In this document: positions 36,460 through 46,531 of the stretch, one piece after another | How positions within the stretch are numbered: position 1 is the first letter of the stretch | How the letters are laid out: each line of letters begins with the position of its first letter | Translations under genes and position numbers: made by a program | Assembly (NCBI GenBank): GCA_945860165.1 | Contig: CAMAPL010000004.1 | Span: forward strand, 1 to 64,000 | Length of the DNA: 64,000 nt | Source of the DNA: Rhizobium sp. Q54 | GTDB lineage: Bacteria > Pseudomonadota > Alphaproteobacteria > Micropepsales > Micropepsaceae | Direction of reading: 5' to 3' | The notes under the pieces: generated by a model | What the model was told of the DNA's origin: nothing | What the model saw: the letters and a program-made list of their open reading frames with translations, nothing else | Databases searched by the model: none

Positions 36460-37311
36460 TTGAGCAATTTCTCCGCGCTTCAGCATGAAGCCGATGGCCT
36501 GTCCGCCGGGCTGCCGCCACTGATGGTGCAGGCCGATCACCTCGCCGCCTCCGTCAGCCTGGGCGTGCATGGCCGCCGCCGCGCCGGCATGGGCGAAAGC
36601 TTCTGGCAGTTCCGGCGCTATGCCAGTCCTGACTCCGCAGGCGCGATCGACTGGCGGCAATCGGCCAAGTCGCAGCATATCTTTGTGCGCGAACGCGAAT
36701 GGGAGGCCGCCCAGACCGTGTGGTTCTGGCGCGATGCCTCGGCCAATATGGCCTTCAAGTCGGGCGCGGTGTCCAAGCGGGCGCGCACCGATCTTCTGCT
36801 GATGGCCATGGCCTCGCTGCTGGTGCGCGGCGGCGAACGTGTGGGCTTTGTCGGCATGGACGGCGCACCGGCCTCGTCGCGCGTGGCGCTGACCCGCATC
36901 GGCCGCGCCTTGTTCTCAAAGGGCGATAACGCCTTGCCGCCGCGGGCGCCCTTCGCGCGCGGCAATCAGATGGTGTGGTTCAGCGATTTCCTCGACACGA
37001 GCGCGCTGGAGGCGATGAAGGACCTGTCGCGCCGCGGCATGGCGGGTCATCTGGTGCGGATCGTGGATCCGGCGGAGGACGATTTTCCCTACAATGGCCG
37101 CACCCGTTTTGAATCGCCGCTGGGCGAGAGCGACGAGATTTTCGGCCGCGCCGAACGGGTGCGCAGCGCCTATCGCAGCCGCTTCACCGCCCATGGCGAG
37201 CGCGTTACCGATGCCGCCCTGAAACTGGGCTGGACCTGTACCACGCACCGCACCGATCAAGCGCCGCAAAGCTCGCTGATCGCGCTGCATGCCGCCATCG
37301 GCGGCACTTGA
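36460..37311 (+). CDS. DUF58 domain protein of the MoxR cluster
   Basis: 283 residues. The DUF58 core is seen in RRAGMGESFWQFRRYASPDS, IDWRQSAKSQHIFVREREWE and VWFWRDASANMAF, a VWA-like fold. Translation apparently starts at TTG 36460. Just before it is a four-codon reading frame ATG AGC CTG TTT TGA (36449-36463) whose stop overlaps the TTG. One extra T in the T4 run 36458-36461 would instead give an ATG start in frame (MSLFLSNF). Either this is a coupled start or a sequencing indel. Confidence 0.85.
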   Translation: MSNFSALQHEADGLSAGLPPLMVQADHLAASVSLGVHGRRRAGMGESFWQFRRYASPDSAGAIDWRQSAKSQHIFVREREWEAAQTVWFWRDASANMAFKSGAVSKRARTDLLLMAMASLLVRGGERVGFVGMDGAPASSRVALTRIGRALFSKGDNALPPRAPFARGNQMVWFSDFLDTSALEAMKDLSRRGMAGHLVRIVDPAEDDFPYNGRTRFESPLGESDEIFGRAERVRSAYRSRFTAHGERVTDAALKLGWTCTTHRTDQAPQSSLIALHAAIGGT

Positions 37312-37315
37312 GCTC

Positions 37316-40015
37316 GTGCTGAATTTCCTGCCGCTCAGTTTTGGTGCGCCACTTGTATTGGTGGCGCTGCTTGCCTTGCCGGTGTTGTGGTGGCTGCTGA
37401 AGGTGACGCCGCCGCTGCCACGCCGCACTTTGTTCCCGCCGCTGCGGCTGCTGCGCGGATTGCAGGATGAAGAACAGACGCCCGCCGCAACGCCCTGGTG
37501 GCTGCTGCTGCTGCGCCTGCTGGCGGCGGCACTGCTGATCCTGGCTTTGGCCGATCCGCTGCTGGGCCGCCCGCCGCAACTGGCGGCGCCCGGCCCGCTG
37601 GTGCTGGTGGTGGACAATGGCTGGGCCGCGGCCAAGGACTGGACAGCAAGCCAGGAACTGATCGCCGATCTGCTGCACAGCGCACGCGGCCGCGCCATCG
37701 CGATCATTCCCACGGCGGGCGCTGCGCCCGCCGGCCTGCTCAACGAAGGCGAAGCGGCGCGCATCGCCAAGGAACTGAAACCGATGCCCTGGCCCGGCGA
37801 CCGCAAGGCTGCGGCTGCCGCGCTGGGCCGGTTCAAATTCACCGTCGCCCCGGCGCTTTATTGGTTGAGCGACGGCATCGAAGACAACAGCACACCATTG
37901 CGTGATGCCCTGCGCCGCTATGGCGGCGTCACGGTCTACGCACCCGAGCGCCTGCCGCTGGGACTGTTGCCAGTGACGCGCGACGCCAGCGGCTTTGCCG
38001 TCACCGCCCTGCGCGCCGGGACCAGTGCGGTTCAGGAAACCGAGGTCGCCGCCATCGGGGCGCGCGGCGAAACACTCGCCGCCACCAAGGTCCGCTTTAC
38101 CCGCGGCGAAACCCGGGCGCGCGGCCATATCGCCTTGCCCATGGAAGTGCGCAACGCCACCGCCCGTCTCGCCGTCAGCGGCGAGGAAAGCGCCGGCGCA
38201 CTGCAGCTTCTGGACAAGGGCGCCTCGCAGCACAGCGCCGGCATCGTTTCGGAAACCAGCGGCGAAGGCCAGCCGCTGCTGTCGGATGTCTATTATCTGG
38301 AGCGGGCGCTTTCGCCCTATGCGGAAATCGCCAAGGGCACCATCTCGGCCCTGCTCGACAAGAACGTGTCGGTGCTGCTGCTGGCCGATGTGGCAAAAAT
38401 TCCCGGCACTGACATGGAACGGGTGAAGGCGTTTGTCGCCAAGGGCGGCATGCTGATCCGTTTCGCCGGCCAGCGCATCACCAATGGCGCCGACGATCTG
38501 GTGCCGGTGCCGCTGCGCGTGGGCGGACGCTATCTGGGAAGCGCCATGGCCTGGTCGTCGCCCCAGCGCCTGGCGCCCTTCACCGCCACCAGCCCCTTCA
38601 ACGGGCTGGAGATCCCGGCCGAGGTGACGGTGACGCGCCAGGTCCTGGCCGAGCCGTCATCGGAAATCGACAATCGCGCCTGGGCACGCCTGACGGACGG
38701 CACGCCTTTGATTACCGCGCGTGCCGAAGGCCAGGGCTGGATCGTGATGTTCCACATCACCGCAAGTCCCACCTGGTCGTCGCTGCCGATATCGGGCCTG
38801 TATGTCGATATGCTCAAGCGGCTGCTGGCGCTGTCGGCGGGCACGCCGGCCCGCGATCTGGCCGGCCTGACCAGCCTGCCGCCGGTGTCGTTGCTGGATG
38901 GTTTCGGTCAGCCCGCCGCGCCAAGCGCCGATGCCGCGCCCATTCTGGCACGCGAATTCGCCCGCACCCGCGTTTCGCCGCGTCATCCGCCCGGTCTGTA
39001 TGGCGCGCATGAAGTGGAAAGCGCGCTCAACACCCTGGCCGCAAACGACGCGCTGACGCCACTCAGCGGCACGAATGCGCAGCCCTATGGCAATACCCAG
39101 GCCCAGGCGCTGGAACCCTATCTGTTGGCGGCGGCGATGCTGCTGCTTCTGATGGACGCCCTGCTGGCACTTGCCTTGCGCGGCTTCACCCCGCGCAAGC
39201 TGAAATGGATCGGCGCCGCCGCCGCTTTCCTTCTTATTGTGCCGCAAGCGAGGGCCGACGACGCCACCGCCATGAAGGCGGCACTGGACACGCGGCTTGC
39301 CTATGTGAAGACCGGACTTGCCGATGTCGACGCCACCAGCCAGGCGGGACTGACCGGCCTGGGCATGGGCTTGCGCGCCCGCACGTCGTATGAGCCGCTG
39401 GAGCCCATGGGCGTCGACCCGGAGCGCGACGACCTCTCTCTATATCCGTTGCTCTACTGGCCGATGGACCCGCGCGCCAAGAACCTCTCGCCCCGGGCGC
39501 AGTCGCGCATCGGCGACTTCATGCGCCAGGGCGGCACCATCATGTTCGACACCCGCGATCTTTCCCTCGGCGCAGTGCGCGGCGCGTCTTCACCAGGCGA
39601 ACAGACTTTGCGGCGGCTGACCGGCGGGCTGGACATGCCGCCGCTCGAACCGCTGCCCGCCGACCATGTTCTGACCAAAGCCTTTTACATCCTGCGCGAC
39701 TTTCCCGGCCGCTGGACGGGGGGACGGCTGTGGGTCGAGGCGCTGCCGCCCGCGCCCAAGAACGGCGCGCCGCCGGCGCGCGGCGGCGATGGCGTTTCGC
39801 CGATCATCATCGGGGGCAATGACTGGGCCGCCGCCTGGGCGGTGGACGGCAATGGGCGCTTCCTGTCCACACCGTCACCCGGCGGCGAACTCCAGCGTGA
39901 GATGGCGCTGCGGTTCGGTATCAATCTGGTGATCTATGCGCTGACCGGCAACTACAAGACCGATGTGGTGCACGCACCCGCCTTGCTCCAGCGACTGGGG
40001 AATGAGCGGCGATGA
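37316..40015 (+). CDS. BatA / DUF4159 membrane protein
   Basis: About 899 residues from GTG 37316; ATG 37289 is an alternative and overlaps the DUF58 gene. The N-terminus FLPLSFGAPLVLVALLALP then LWWLLKVTPPLPRR is the BatA two-helix domain (two membrane segments by about 85). A VWA-like region (about 90-240) lacks a clear MIDAS. A long periplasmic part follows, a membrane pair (about 610-655), and a C-terminal DUF4159 domain (about 660-890, with YPLLYWPMDPRAKNLSP and GGTIMFDTRD). It overlaps the next gene by ATGA. Probable role: membrane anchor of a MoxR-assisted complex; unknown process. Confidence 0.82.
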   Translation: MLNFLPLSFGAPLVLVALLALPVLWWLLKVTPPLPRRTLFPPLRLLRGLQDEEQTPAATPWWLLLLRLLAAALLILALADPLLGRPPQLAAPGPLVLVVDNGWAAAKDWTASQELIADLLHSARGRAIAIIPTAGAAPAGLLNEGEAARIAKELKPMPWPGDRKAAAAALGRFKFTVAPALYWLSDGIEDNSTPLRDALRRYGGVTVYAPERLPLGLLPVTRDASGFAVTALRAGTSAVQETEVAAIGARGETLAATKVRFTRGETRARGHIALPMEVRNATARLAVSGEESAGALQLLDKGASQHSAGIVSETSGEGQPLLSDVYYLERALSPYAEIAKGTISALLDKNVSVLLLADVAKIPGTDMERVKAFVAKGGMLIRFAGQRITNGADDLVPVPLRVGGRYLGSAMAWSSPQRLAPFTATSPFNGLEIPAEVTVTRQVLAEPSSEIDNRAWARLTDGTPLITARAEGQGWIVMFHITASPTWSSLPISGLYVDMLKRLLALSAGTPARDLAGLTSLPPVSLLDGFGQPAAPSADAAPILAREFARTRVSPRHPPGLYGAHEVESALNTLAANDALTPLSGTNAQPYGNTQAQALEPYLLAAAMLLLLMDALLALALRGFTPRKLKWIGAAAAFLLIVPQARADDATAMKAALDTRLAYVKTGLADVDATSQAGLTGLGMGLRARTSYEPLEPMGVDPERDDLSLYPLLYWPMDPRAKNLSPRAQSRIGDFMRQGGTIMFDTRDLSLGAVRGASSPGEQTLRRLTGGLDMPPLEPLPADHVLTKAFYILRDFPGRWTGGRLWVEALPPAPKNGAPPARGGDGVSPIIIGGNDWAAAWAVDGNGRFLSTPSPGGELQREMALRFGINLVIYALTGNYKTDVVHAPALLQRLGNERR

Positions 40016-42072
40016 CACGCCTGGCCTTTGCCCCGGTCATTCCGCTCAGCCTGCTCACCGCGCTGGCTGTGATCGCCTTGCTGATAACCCTGTACGGCAT
40101 TTTCGTGCGCGCGCGCGGCACTTGGGCGCGGGGCCTCGCCTTTGCCGTACTGCTGTTCGCCCTGGCGGGGCCGCTGCTGGTGCGCGAGCAGCGCGCCAGC
40201 CTGCCCGATGTCGCCGTCATCGTCACCGACCGTTCGCAAAGCATGGCGCTGGGCAAGCGTTCGGCGCAGGCCGAAGCCGCGCGTACCCAGATCAAACGCC
40301 TACTGGCGGCCCAGCCCGATCTGGTGGTGCGCGAAACCAGCATCACCACCACCGCCACCGGCGAGAATAACGGTACCCAGGCCTTCGCCGCCCTGAACGC
40401 GGCCCTGGCAGATGTGCCGCAGGGCAGGATCGCGGGCGCCATCCTGATCACCGATGGCCAGGTGCATGACGCGCCCTCGCCCGAGAACATATCGCTGAAG
40501 GCGACGCTGCAGGTGCTGGTGGCGGGCGGGCGCAGCGAAAAGGATCGCAAGCTGACGGTGCTGAACGCGGCGCGCTTCGCCATTGTCGGGCAACAGGCCA
40601 CCATGCGCCTGCGCATCGACGATCTCGGCAGCAGTGCTGAAACCAGCACCGTGCTGAACATCCGCATCGACGGCAAAACCTTTGGCAACCGCCTGGTGCC
40701 GGTGGGCAAGGACACCGACATACGCATTCCGGTGGCGCATGAAGGCGAAAACCTGATCGAGCTTTCGGCGGGACAAGGTCCGGCCGAACTGACGATGCAG
40801 AACAATCACGCTGTGGTCACCGTGTCGGGGGTGCGCGACCGGCTGCGGGTGCTGCTGGTGTCGGGCGAGCCCCATGCTGGCGAGCGCGTATGGCGCAATC
40901 TGCTGAAGGCCGATCCGTCGGTGGACCTGATCCATTTCACCATCCTGCGCCCGCCGGACAAGCAGGACACCACGCCGATCAACGAGCTTTCGCTGATCGC
41001 CTTTCCCTATCGCGAACTGTTTCTGGAAAAACTGGGCTCGTTCGACCTGGTGGTATTCGACCGCTATCGCGAACGCGGAATTTTGCCGCTGGCCTATTTC
41101 CAGAACATCGCCGGTTATGTGCAGGGTGGTGGCGCGCTGCTGATTTCCTCGGGGCCCGAATTCGCCGGACCGGAAAGCATCTACCGCACGCCATTGAGCC
41201 AGGTTCTTCCCGCCCAGCCCACCGGGCAGATCGTCACCGGCGGCTTTCGCCCGCGCGTCACCGAGGACGGCATGGCCCATCCGGTGACGCGCGAATTGCC
41301 CGGCCGCAATATGGACAAGGCGGCGCCGACCTGGGGCCGCTGGTTTCGTGTCATCAGCAGCAACAAGATCGCGGGCCAGACGGTGATGGCCAGCGACGGC
41401 GGACAGCCGCTGCTGGTGCTAGACCAGGTCGGCAAGGGCCGGGTCGCCGAACTGATGTCCGACCAGACCTGGCTGTGGGCGCGCGGCTTTGAAGGAGGCG
41501 GGCCGCAAGCCGAACTGCTGCGCCGACTGGCGCACTGGCTGATGAAGGAACCGGAGCTAGAAGCCGAGGCCTTGGCCATCAACATCATCAGCAATGATAT
41601 CCGCATCACCCGCCGCACGATGGCGAAAGCGACCCCGCCGGCGATCCTGACCATGCCATCGGGCCGGCAGGTGGCGCTGCCGCTGACCAGGGTGGAGCCG
41701 GGTATCTGGCGCGCCACCACCAAGGCTGGCGTGCTGGGACTGTACCGCGCCACCGACGGCATTCTGTCCGCCGTGACGGCGGCGGGACCGCTCAATCCCA
41801 AGGAAGTAGCCGACATGCGCGCCAGCGCCGAAGTGCTGCAACCGGTGGCGGGCGCCAGTGGCGGCAGCGTGCAGTGGCTGGAAGACGGCGTGCCGGAGGT
41901 GCGGCGGGTGGCGCCCGGCGACACGGCCAGCGGCGCGGGCTGGATCGGCCTGCGCAGCAATGGCGCCTATCGCGTCACCGCGCTGGAGCAGCAGAAGCTG
42001 CTGCCGCAATGGCTGGCGCTACTGCTGATAGTTGGGGCGCTGTTGCTGGCGTGGCGGCTCGAAGGACGATAA
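40012..42072 (+). CDS. VWA-like / glutamine-amidotransferase-like membrane protein
   Basis: 686 residues. Two N-terminal membrane helices (about 8-55), then a VWA-like domain with a DxSxS-type MIDAS DRSQSM (about 73-78) and ILITDGQVHDA. A class I glutamine-amidotransferase-like Rossmann region with RVLLVSGEPHAGERVWRNLL and GGALLISSGPEFAG lies about 280-410. A C-terminal membrane helix ends the protein. It is the last gene of the MoxR cluster. Alphaproteobacterial relatives have no proven function. An A/T-richer region begins right after its stop codon. Confidence 0.8.
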   Translation: MTRLAFAPVIPLSLLTALAVIALLITLYGIFVRARGTWARGLAFAVLLFALAGPLLVREQRASLPDVAVIVTDRSQSMALGKRSAQAEAARTQIKRLLAAQPDLVVRETSITTTATGENNGTQAFAALNAALADVPQGRIAGAILITDGQVHDAPSPENISLKATLQVLVAGGRSEKDRKLTVLNAARFAIVGQQATMRLRIDDLGSSAETSTVLNIRIDGKTFGNRLVPVGKDTDIRIPVAHEGENLIELSAGQGPAELTMQNNHAVVTVSGVRDRLRVLLVSGEPHAGERVWRNLLKADPSVDLIHFTILRPPDKQDTTPINELSLIAFPYRELFLEKLGSFDLVVFDRYRERGILPLAYFQNIAGYVQGGGALLISSGPEFAGPESIYRTPLSQVLPAQPTGQIVTGGFRPRVTEDGMAHPVTRELPGRNMDKAAPTWGRWFRVISSNKIAGQTVMASDGGQPLLVLDQVGKGRVAELMSDQTWLWARGFEGGGPQAELLRRLAHWLMKEPELEAEALAINIISNDIRITRRTMAKATPPAILTMPSGRQVALPLTRVEPGIWRATTKAGVLGLYRATDGILSAVTAAGPLNPKEVADMRASAEVLQPVAGASGGSVQWLEDGVPEVRRVAPGDTASGAGWIGLRSNGAYRVTALEQQKLLPQWLALLLIVGALLLAWRLEGR

Positions 42073-42077
42073 GTAAA

Positions 42078-42664
42078 CTAACTTCTAAAAGAAGTGGCCG
42101 CATAGCGACCTTTACCGAGATTTCCATCGCGCTTTAAAAGTCTGTTCCTCATCAAAATTCCGATGAGACTAAACGGCAAATAGTCTTTTGACCCTCCGCC
42201 GTAGTCACTTTGAAGACCGGTGTCTTTCGCGATATCCTCGTTTGTGACGCCTGTCTGGTTTGCTTTAGCCAATTGGATAATTCTGTCTTTCAAAAGTGCC
42301 AGATCAATCTGAGCCTTTTCCCGAACGCCACTAGGAACAATCACATCTTTGCGTAAACCGCGAACTACTCCTGTTGGCATCACAGAGTTTGTAAGAAGTC
42401 CGCTGGTTGCAGTTGTTCCAAAGGCAGAAATAAGTTCCGCTTCAACTTTAATCGCTTGGTCTTCAGTAAGATCATCAACCAAAACGATAACGGCAACTTC
42501 GGCACTAGCGTCTTGAACTTGCTTATGCGCTGACCTTTCAATGTTTCGTCAACATGCAAAACATGCTGCCAAGCCCGGCTGCCCGTGCCCTTTCCGATAT
42601 AAAAAGCTGTCGCTGGATTCTGTCGGGGATCTTTTAAAGCGTACACATAATAGGGACGACTCAT
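42078..42664 (-). pseudogene. GIY-YIG nuclease family protein, frameshifted
   Basis: The 5' half gives MSRPYYVYALKDPRQN then FYIGKGTGSRAWQHVLHVDE, a LEM-3-like GIY-YIG domain. The frame then degenerates and stops. A second frame continues it: ERSAHKQVQDASAEV, VLVDDLTEDQAIKVEAELIS and a C-terminal winged-helix-like part (LLKDRIIQLAKANQTG, NEDIAKDTGL). Adding one A at the run 42544-42546 (TTT on plus) restores one protein of about 196 residues. The region is visibly A/T-richer than its neighbours, suggesting transfer. Cargo or defence-linked roles are possible but not shown. Confidence 0.7.
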
Positions 42665-45315: not shown

Positions 45316-45363
45316 GACCGGTCCTATAGGACCGGTCGCCTCCCATCGCAAGAATTAAGGCTT

Positions 45364-45550
45364 TTAACCGCCAGAACCCAGGTAATTCAGCATGGAAAGC
45401 TGGTGCAGCCCGGCGGTGACCTGCAAGGCCGCCGAGGCTGACAGCTCCCTTCGCACCCGTTACTTCCACCGCCAGACCCTCGATCCGGGCGCCGCGGCCG
45501 AAGCGGGTCAGGGTGGAAATGCCGTCTATTTCCTCCAGCAAAGCGCACAT
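45364..45550 (-). pseudogene. Possible remnant of a flagellar ATPase (FliI-like) start
   Basis: A frame opens at ATG 45550 with MCALLEEIDGISTLTRFGR then ARIEGLAVEVTGAKGAVSLG. This pattern (GR-x-x-x-I-x-GL-x-VEV-x-G) resembles the N-terminal barrel of FliI/YscN ATPases. After about 40 residues the likeness ends. In this frame it runs on into mnmA; one base shift gives ASAALQVTAGLHQLSMLNYL and a stop at 45364. It is far too short to work. It could be a genuine small protein instead. Lies between mnmA and ctrA. Confidence 0.35.
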
Positions 45551-45615
45551 AAAAATTCTTGGTTCAGACGACTTTCTGTCGTCCGTGAGGCCCCACCTTG
45601 AGGCCAAGGATGTAA

Positions 45616-45817
45616 ATGGCGGTAAACTTAACGAATCGAATCAAGGCCATGGCGGCGCTCCCCAAACCTTTCCCGGGCTTAATCCGGGATGAGGAAGGGC
45701 TGAAGCCGGCGGGTGAAGTTAAAGCTGCTGTTAACTATTTACGCTTACCGTTCGGAAACCGGTTAATCGTGCCTGCACCATTTTGGGCACATCCGAACGT
45801 TAATAGAGGGGCCTGAC
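45616..45817 (+). promoter_or_regulatory. ctrA upstream region with GANTC pair and TTAA sites
   Basis: Two tandem GAATC sites (45633-45637 and 45638-45642) are CcrM-type GANTC methylation sites. Further on, TTAA at 45719-45722 and 45731-45734 are spaced by 8 bases, close to the CtrA box TTAA-N7-TTAA. Single TTAA tetramers are at 45763 and 45800. GAGGGG at 45806-45811 is the ctrA ribosome-binding site. A 66-codon open frame over 45616-45816 has no domain and is not called. Confidence 0.55.
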
Positions 45818-46531
45818 ATGCGCGTATTGCTGATTGAAGACGACAGCGCGATGGCACGAAGCATCGAGCTGATGCTGCGAAACGAAGGGCTTAACGTCTA
45901 CACCACCGATCTCGGGGAAGAAGGGATCGATCTCGGTAAGCTTTACGATTACGACATTATCGTACTGGACCTGCAGCTGCCCGACATGTCGGGCTTCGAG
46001 GTTCTCAAGGCCCTCAGGGTCGCCAAGGTGCAGACCCCGGTCCTAGTCCTGTCAGGCAACCCCATTGTAGAAGCCAAGGTCAAGGCGCTGGGCTTCGGCG
46101 CCGACGATTACATGACCAAGCCCTTCCACAAGGACGAGCTGGTCGCCCGCATCCAGGCCGTCGTCCGCCGTTCCAAGGGCCACAGCCAGTCGGTCATCAC
46201 CACTGGCAAGCTCACCGTCAATCTGGACGCCAAGACCGTGGAAGTGGACGGCGCCCGCGTGCATCTGACCGGCAAAGAATATCAGATGCTGGAGCTGCTC
46301 ACCCTGCGCAAGGGCACCACCCTGACCAAGGAAATGTTCCTCAATCACCTTTACGGTGGCATGGACGAGCCGGAGCTGAAGATCATCGACGTCTTCATTT
46401 GCAAGTTGCGCAAGAAACTCGCGGCCGCCACCGAAGGCGCCAATTATATCGAAACCGTATGGGGCCGCGGCTATGTGCTGCGCGATCCTAATGGCGAGGA
46501 AATCATCGTCCCGGTTACCCAGGTCGCTTAA
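45818..46531 (+). CDS. ctrA: Cell-cycle master response regulator CtrA
   Basis: 237 residues. N-terminal receiver: [20 protein letters not shown], phosphoacceptor Asp51 in [18 protein letters not shown], and KPF lysine. C-terminal OmpR-type winged helix (about 125-230) with [17 protein letters not shown] and [12 protein letters not shown]. The near-identity of these segments to alphaproteobacterial CtrA is distinctive. In Caulobacter it controls origin silencing, division, flagella and pili. Here it is monocistronic with a strong terminator. rcdA, encoding an adaptor for its degradation, lies 3.5 kb downstream. Confidence 0.97.

Follow-up and report, generated by a model that had tools for sequence, protein, structure and literature searches.

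As judged by its conservation across related loci, the regulatory block upstream of ctrA in the window (the whole 64-kb stretch of DNA that was analysed) is real and constitutes a clade-specific version of a ctrA control region that is already known. On the same comparison, the signal in this region is in the single second GANTC and its adjoining half-sites, rather than in the doubling of GANTC or the N8 spacing of a TTAA pair, the two traits that the initial annotation had called unusual. On balance, we favor a two-module control of ctrA, in which a distal input through CcrM and GcrA, with feedback by CtrA next to it, would be combined with a proximal CtrA-controlled module (Table 1). A total of 85 ctrA upstream regions were read, comprising 65 from the window's genus, 4 from genus g26 that carry the block, and 16 others, among them two g26 loci (G062 and G063). 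A ctrA match at E <= 1e-95 was obtained in 83 genomes of the order, of which 81 were used, with G088 and G110 left out because the gene start was missing. The genome G026 contributes two loci, and G004, G080, and G084, which had no ctrA match, entered only via the block pattern; their inclusion favors the block, and the count of the conserved GANTC in register is 57/62 without them. The class-wide comparison covered the ctrA loci of 79 named Alphaproteobacteria.

Table 1. Features in and around the ctrA upstream region, with positions in the window and their occurrence in related loci.
Feature	Position	Strand	Observation
fliI remnant, divergent from ctrA	45342..45578	-	~80 aa at 51% identity
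CACCTTG, diverged copy of the conserved CATCTTG element	45594..45600	+	ANNTTG in 58/69 loci
Distal block, CtrA-type half-sites GTAA-N7-TAAA-C-TTAA	45612..45631	+	core in 65/65 genus loci
Extra GAATC, this species only	45633..45637	.	1/65 genus loci; loci most alike in flanks read AAATC
Conserved predicted CcrM site GAATC, context CGAATCA	45638..45642	.	in register in 60/65 genus loci; CGAATCA in 49/60
TTAA-N8-TTAA	45719..45734	+	N8 in 34/65 genus loci; only the 3' TTAAC (45731) kept genus-wide
Proximal module: TTAAC and second TTAA starting 32 bp downstream (45763)	45731..45766	+	second TTAA in 54/65 genus loci
ctrA, 237-aa response regulator	45818..46531	+	NCBIfam NF045991, 417.7 bits, cut-off 350

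The gene downstream of the flagged sites is a genuine ctrA. G000, the 2.48-Mb genome of the window (42 contigs), encodes a CcrM-type methylase, recognized by N6_N4_Mtase (PF01555) and RAMA (PF18755) domains in one 366-aa frame, which is the domain make-up of CcrM, together with GcrA (PF07750, 161 bits); a search for ccrM and gcrA, which the initial annotation had proposed, thus located both. The RAMA profile matched Caulobacter vibrioides alone among the control genomes searched, and a RAMA-domain protein was present in 83/96 genomes of the order and in 60/60 of the good-quality ones. In three closed genomes of the genus only, ctrA was placed 0.38–0.47 Mb from the best ParB match, taken as the origin mark, and this distance fits a replication-coupled or hemi-methylation timer in those relatives. 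Two copies of ctrA (L022 and L167) were observed in G026, each with a complete distal block and a CGAATCA site.

The GTAAA-N-TTAA core of the distal block is invariant in all 65 loci of the genus, and a GANTC stands exactly 6 bp after the core of this TTAA-N7-TAAA-N-TTAA block in 60 of them. The in-register site is missing from G009, G019, G077, G079, and G089 (shifted by 1 bp in the last), and these five genomes all encode a RAMA-domain protein, indicating that the site is not indispensable. The third base of the site, which is free for CcrM, is A in that column in 65/65 loci, and the base directly after the site is A in 64/65. Read on the minus strand, CGAATCA becomes TGATTCG, an extended motif that has been tied to activation by GcrA in Caulobacter (YGAKTCK; PMC7987155), and 50 of the 60 in-register loci fit YGAKTCK; the same paper describes Brevundimonas GcrA as having no preference for the extended motif. 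Among the other GANTC sites in upstream regions of the genus, only 1/41 reads TGATTCG, and among the 102 GANTC sites of the window the conserved one is the sole example. The first half-site of the block is TTAA in 66/69 loci of the genus and g26 and is degenerate (GTAA) in the window, and TTAA-N7-TAAA, a near match to the CtrA box, is common in the genus. The CATCTTG element is found ~20 bp upstream of the half-site block and often reads TTG-N4-CAA. Positions 45608–45817 contain six TTAA, where 0.13 would be expected, and no other 210-bp stretch of the window is as dense in this motif. Visual inspection of the surroundings of the distal site for -35/-10 elements, in either direction, revealed no consistent -10, and we therefore place no promoter there. 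The conserved GANTC beside half-sites, together with the encoded CcrM-type methylase and GcrA, makes a CcrM/GcrA/CtrA input into ctrA likely. The initial annotation's proposal of CcrM-tied ctrA control was accordingly supported as far as one of the two GANTC is concerned, which is strongly conserved beside CtrA-type half-sites in a genome with methylase and GcrA, and fell with respect to a position equivalent to that in the Caulobacter P1 promoter.

In Caulobacter, ctrA P1 carries a GANTC at -29/-28 and a TTAA at -14, and P2 carries a TTAA-N7-TTAA (PMC4287350). The equivalence with the P1 site implied by the initial annotation is contradicted by position, as 93 bp separate the conserved GAATC from the proximal TTAAC downstream of it, whereas the gap between GANTC and the TTAAC half-site, which at P1 overlaps the -10, is 13–15 bp in Caulobacter and many Rhizobiales. 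The P1-like module CTTG-N-GANTC-N-TTAAC, which matches the mapped P1 in Caulobacter, occurs in 29/79 named loci (for the most part Rhizobiales, together with Caulobacter and Phenylobacterium) and in 0/65 loci of the window's genus. The region resembles the P1/P2 region of Caulobacter crescentus in having a predicted CcrM site and several CtrA half-sites before ctrA, a genome that encodes both a CcrM-type methylase and GcrA, and a site that fits the GcrA extended motif; it differs in that a distinct cluster of half-sites ends 6 bp before the GANTC and in that there is no exact N7 pair. The ctrA regions of Rhizobiales likewise contain several GANTC and TTAAC half-sites, with TTAA-N7-TAAA near -280 in many loci, but the CTTGC-N5-GANTC-N8-TTAAC ~110 bp from ctrA and the GANTC-N4-GANTC near -230 that many of them carry are both absent here. 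The occurrence of several GANTC upstream of ctrA has already been published (PMC8116508). Among the sister genera, g28 (1 locus) keeps the P1-like GANTC; g29 (5 loci) lacks that GANTC but has kept the CTTGC and TTAACC frame, with a GANTC further upstream in 4/5; g30 has a GATTC downstream of the TTAA pair in 7/7 loci; and g27 (1 locus) has a GATTC just downstream of its TTAACC. Within a single family, the position of the CcrM site thus seems to have shifted, in an order of events that we infer. In Caulobacter, the promoter was as active after mutation of the P1 GANTC as before it (PMC3667746), and making the ctrA promoter unmethylatable produced no abnormal phenotype (PMC3973325).

The letters and coordinates given in the initial annotation for the doubled GANTC (GAATCGAATC at 45633–45642, two adjoining sites upstream of ctrA) and for the TTAA-N8-TTAA pair were both exact. 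The term unusual was apt for the former, which is found in 1/65 genus loci, namely the window's own, and misplaced for the N8 spacing, which is shared by 34/65. Within the window, GANTCGANTC occurs once against 0.99 expected from dinucleotide shuffles, and the whole genome contains doubled GANTC at 2 places versus 5 for a reversed-pattern control, so that doubling is at chance level in both. Single GANTC sites are depleted in the window (102 seen versus 228 +/- 15 expected), with a mean spacing of ~630 bp and one 5.5-kb stretch (37116–42615) devoid of any GANTC. The loci closest in flanking sequence (G035, G101, and G107) read AAATCGAATC, and one A-to-G change makes the extra site; with the doubling confined to one locus at a single change from its nearest relatives, the extra GANTC of this species is probably an incidental point change. 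The claim that the doubling is a functional feature, acting through higher GcrA occupancy or altered methylation timing as at Caulobacter mipZ, could not be sustained on these counts, and we find it doubtful even though the mipZ promoter has two juxtaposed GAnTC (PMC3667746), GANTC-N4-GANTC pairs lie upstream of ctrA in 29/79 named loci, and the extra GAATC also fits YGAKTCK on the minus strand. The likeness to mipZ is limited in that mipZ is another gene and its CGACTC motif, tested there by mutation, shows conservation among related species (PMC3708114), whereas the doubling here is not conserved. For TC combined with a G at the second spacer position, Fisher's test gave p 0.049 among sequences that are related, a hint of possible avoidance of doubled sites. 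The N8 pair, for its part, is found once in the window against 0.04 expected (4/100 shuffles reach this count). A full CtrA box, TTAA-N7-TTAA, is present in 0/65 genus loci within 330 bp, and exact TTAA pairs in the genome (35 places) are distributed as N5 2, N6 8, N7 8, N8 7, N9 7, and N10 3; N7 is not enriched relative to the other spacings, revealing no N7 preference in this genome. The candidate explanation of the N8 pair as a degenerate or slipped N7 box was ruled out by the 0/65 count. The motif TTAAC[CT]ANT occupies the proximal position in 65/65 genus loci, a second TTAA lies downstream of TTAAC in 54/65 (at 32 bp in 46), and TTAAC[CT] is found within 200 bp of ctrA in 71/79 named Alphaproteobacteria. 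Because TTAAC[CT] is class-wide, while its N8 partner is limited to 34/65 loci and N7 occurs in none, the view that the pair stands one base from a CtrA box gave way to one in which the pair would join a conserved 3' half-site with a clade-limited 5' half-site. A single CtrA box of relaxed spacing, serving autoregulation, is compatible with the two-module reading and is possible, if not the interpretation we would choose: the N8 pair recurs in those 34 loci, 16 of them as TTAAAGCTGCTGTTAA, a 6-bp spacing is reported to be functional in R. sphaeroides (PMC6180460), and TTAA-N6-TTAA occurs at podJ (PMC4287350), but the pair is missing from 31/65 loci in which TTAAC[CT]ANT is kept, and single half-sites can suffice for CtrA action (PMC4287350).

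The conservation of the distal block must also be weighed against the neighboring flagellar genes. In most loci of the genus, fliI and ctrA are divergent, and fliI lies within 3 kb upstream of ctrA in 27/79 other named loci; Rhodobacter sphaeroides is known to have divergent fliI promoters that CtrA activates (PMC6180460); the block could thus mainly be a CtrA-activated promoter of the divergent fliI/fliJ, with its place upstream of ctrA incidental, which we consider unlikely. In the window, a decayed fliI remnant sits between mnmA and ctrA. Sorted by fliI, the 69 core-bearing loci comprised 51 with a continuous match as far as read, 13 with an interrupted match (G105 on weak grounds, its match stopping 115 bp short of where the sequence read ends), and 5 with none, and the GANTC was in register in 48/51, 12/13, and 4/5, respectively. 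The five loci without fliI keep CGAATCA plus a divergent FliJ-like frame (in the one tested, a weak PF02050 match of 26.8 bits versus a cut-off of 28.4), which speaks for the flagellar reading to the extent that these loci alone do not show a block independent of the flagellar operon. In these loci (L030, L115, L141, L164, and L166), the frame measures 141–142 aa and no FlhA was found in the genomes concerned, and the small FliJ-like protein perhaps has a non-flagellar role there. No FlhA was found in 31/96 genomes of the order, some of them incomplete, including that of the window (G000), which suggests that flagella were lost repeatedly in the order; as the lack of FlhA counts for little in a genome that is not complete, the loci were sorted by the state of fliI beside ctrA. 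A more telling group is formed by G000 (window), G001, G006, G017, G103, and G107, in which fliI is a remnant or carries a frameshift and the flank read shows no FliJ-like match; 6/6 of these loci retain the GTAAA-N-TTAA core as well as the GANTC, and the whole 64-kb window likewise contains no FliJ-like match. Identity in the fliI remnants has dropped to 51% (window), 63% (G006), and 68% (G103), and the pieces in G001, G017, and G107 are still 67–95% identical, such that inertia after recent fliI loss may explain the latter three. The survival of site and core in these six fliI-decayed loci makes ctrA the likelier client of the conserved site than the divergent fliI. The half-site nearest fliI is degenerate in 2/6 of the same loci (GTAA in the window, TCAA in G103) versus 1/51 with continuous fliI, which favors a flagellar role for that half-site and fits shared use; on the simplest reading, the outer half-site would have served the flagellar operon, and the core and GANTC would serve ctrA. 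Conservation through a leader peptide encoded by the ORF at 45616–45816, open for 66 codons in the window, was rejected as extremely improbable, given that the frame in relatives is mostly short, with a stop inside the block in several loci and the start codon often absent, and that the ORF has no NCBIfam match.

Under the two-module control that we favor, the distal module (45612–45642) would consist of a cluster of CtrA-type half-sites and one CcrM site in a GcrA-preferred context, and the proximal module (45731–45766) of two TTAA-type half-sites 32 bp apart. We infer the promoter positions, methylation, binding, and order of events as follows. Passage of the replication fork would change the methylation state of the distal site, upon which GcrA would act there and ctrA transcription would start; CtrA~P would then bind both the half-sites 6 bp from the GANTC and the proximal module, shutting this first input and sustaining the second. 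The conservation, spacing, and motif context of the site, the presence of the methylase and gcrA, and the persistence of the site where fliI has decayed are direct observations. Against this mechanism count the absence of a recognizable -10, the five loci without an in-register site, the orientation of the GcrA motif, which is on the minus strand and faces fliI, and the Caulobacter P1 GANTC data. More tentatively still, and as a history we would not yet back, the replication-coupled ctrA input may in this Micropepsaceae lineage have moved from the ancestral P1 to an upstream module in which the GcrA/CcrM site and the CtrA half-sites are fused 6 bp apart, with the logic kept, the place and orientation changed, and the module outliving the flagellar gene in some species. 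If the distal site drives ctrA, it would clearly exemplify cis-regulatory turnover at the core of the cell-cycle circuitry: the methylation input to ctrA would be kept and its position would shift between genera of one family. This would open the question of where in a promoter a methylation switch coupled to replication can be accommodated. Few loci stand behind the contrast between genera, with the P1-like GANTC seen in 1 locus, the P1 frame without GANTC in 5 loci, and the new conserved block in the window's genus.

The full block pattern was found in 61/96 genomes of the order, which fall within just 2 of the 7 genera, and in 5/385 genomes sampled from the class; three of these five belong to the same genus, and the remaining 2 (of 380 outside the genus) have quite different letters. 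In genus g26, the block occurs in 4/6 loci and was not seen in G062 or G063, whose flanks of 293 and 226 bp are both short. Owing to the GTAA at the first half-site, the window's genome fails to match the strict pattern, and the looser core TAAA-N-TTAA-N3..9-GANTC occurs once in that genome, at this locus. We found no published description of the distal block in the open-licence literature searched. A TTAA-N7-TAAA at about -280 from ctrA was observed in Rhizobiales loci including L046, L049 (TTAAGGGTCGGTAAATG), L061, and L080, in a similar relative place. These four loci showed no fliI match within the flank, and three of them carry a frame that by eye resembles FliJ. The Rhizobiales TTAA-N7-TAAA near -280 is perhaps the same ancestral half-site pair.
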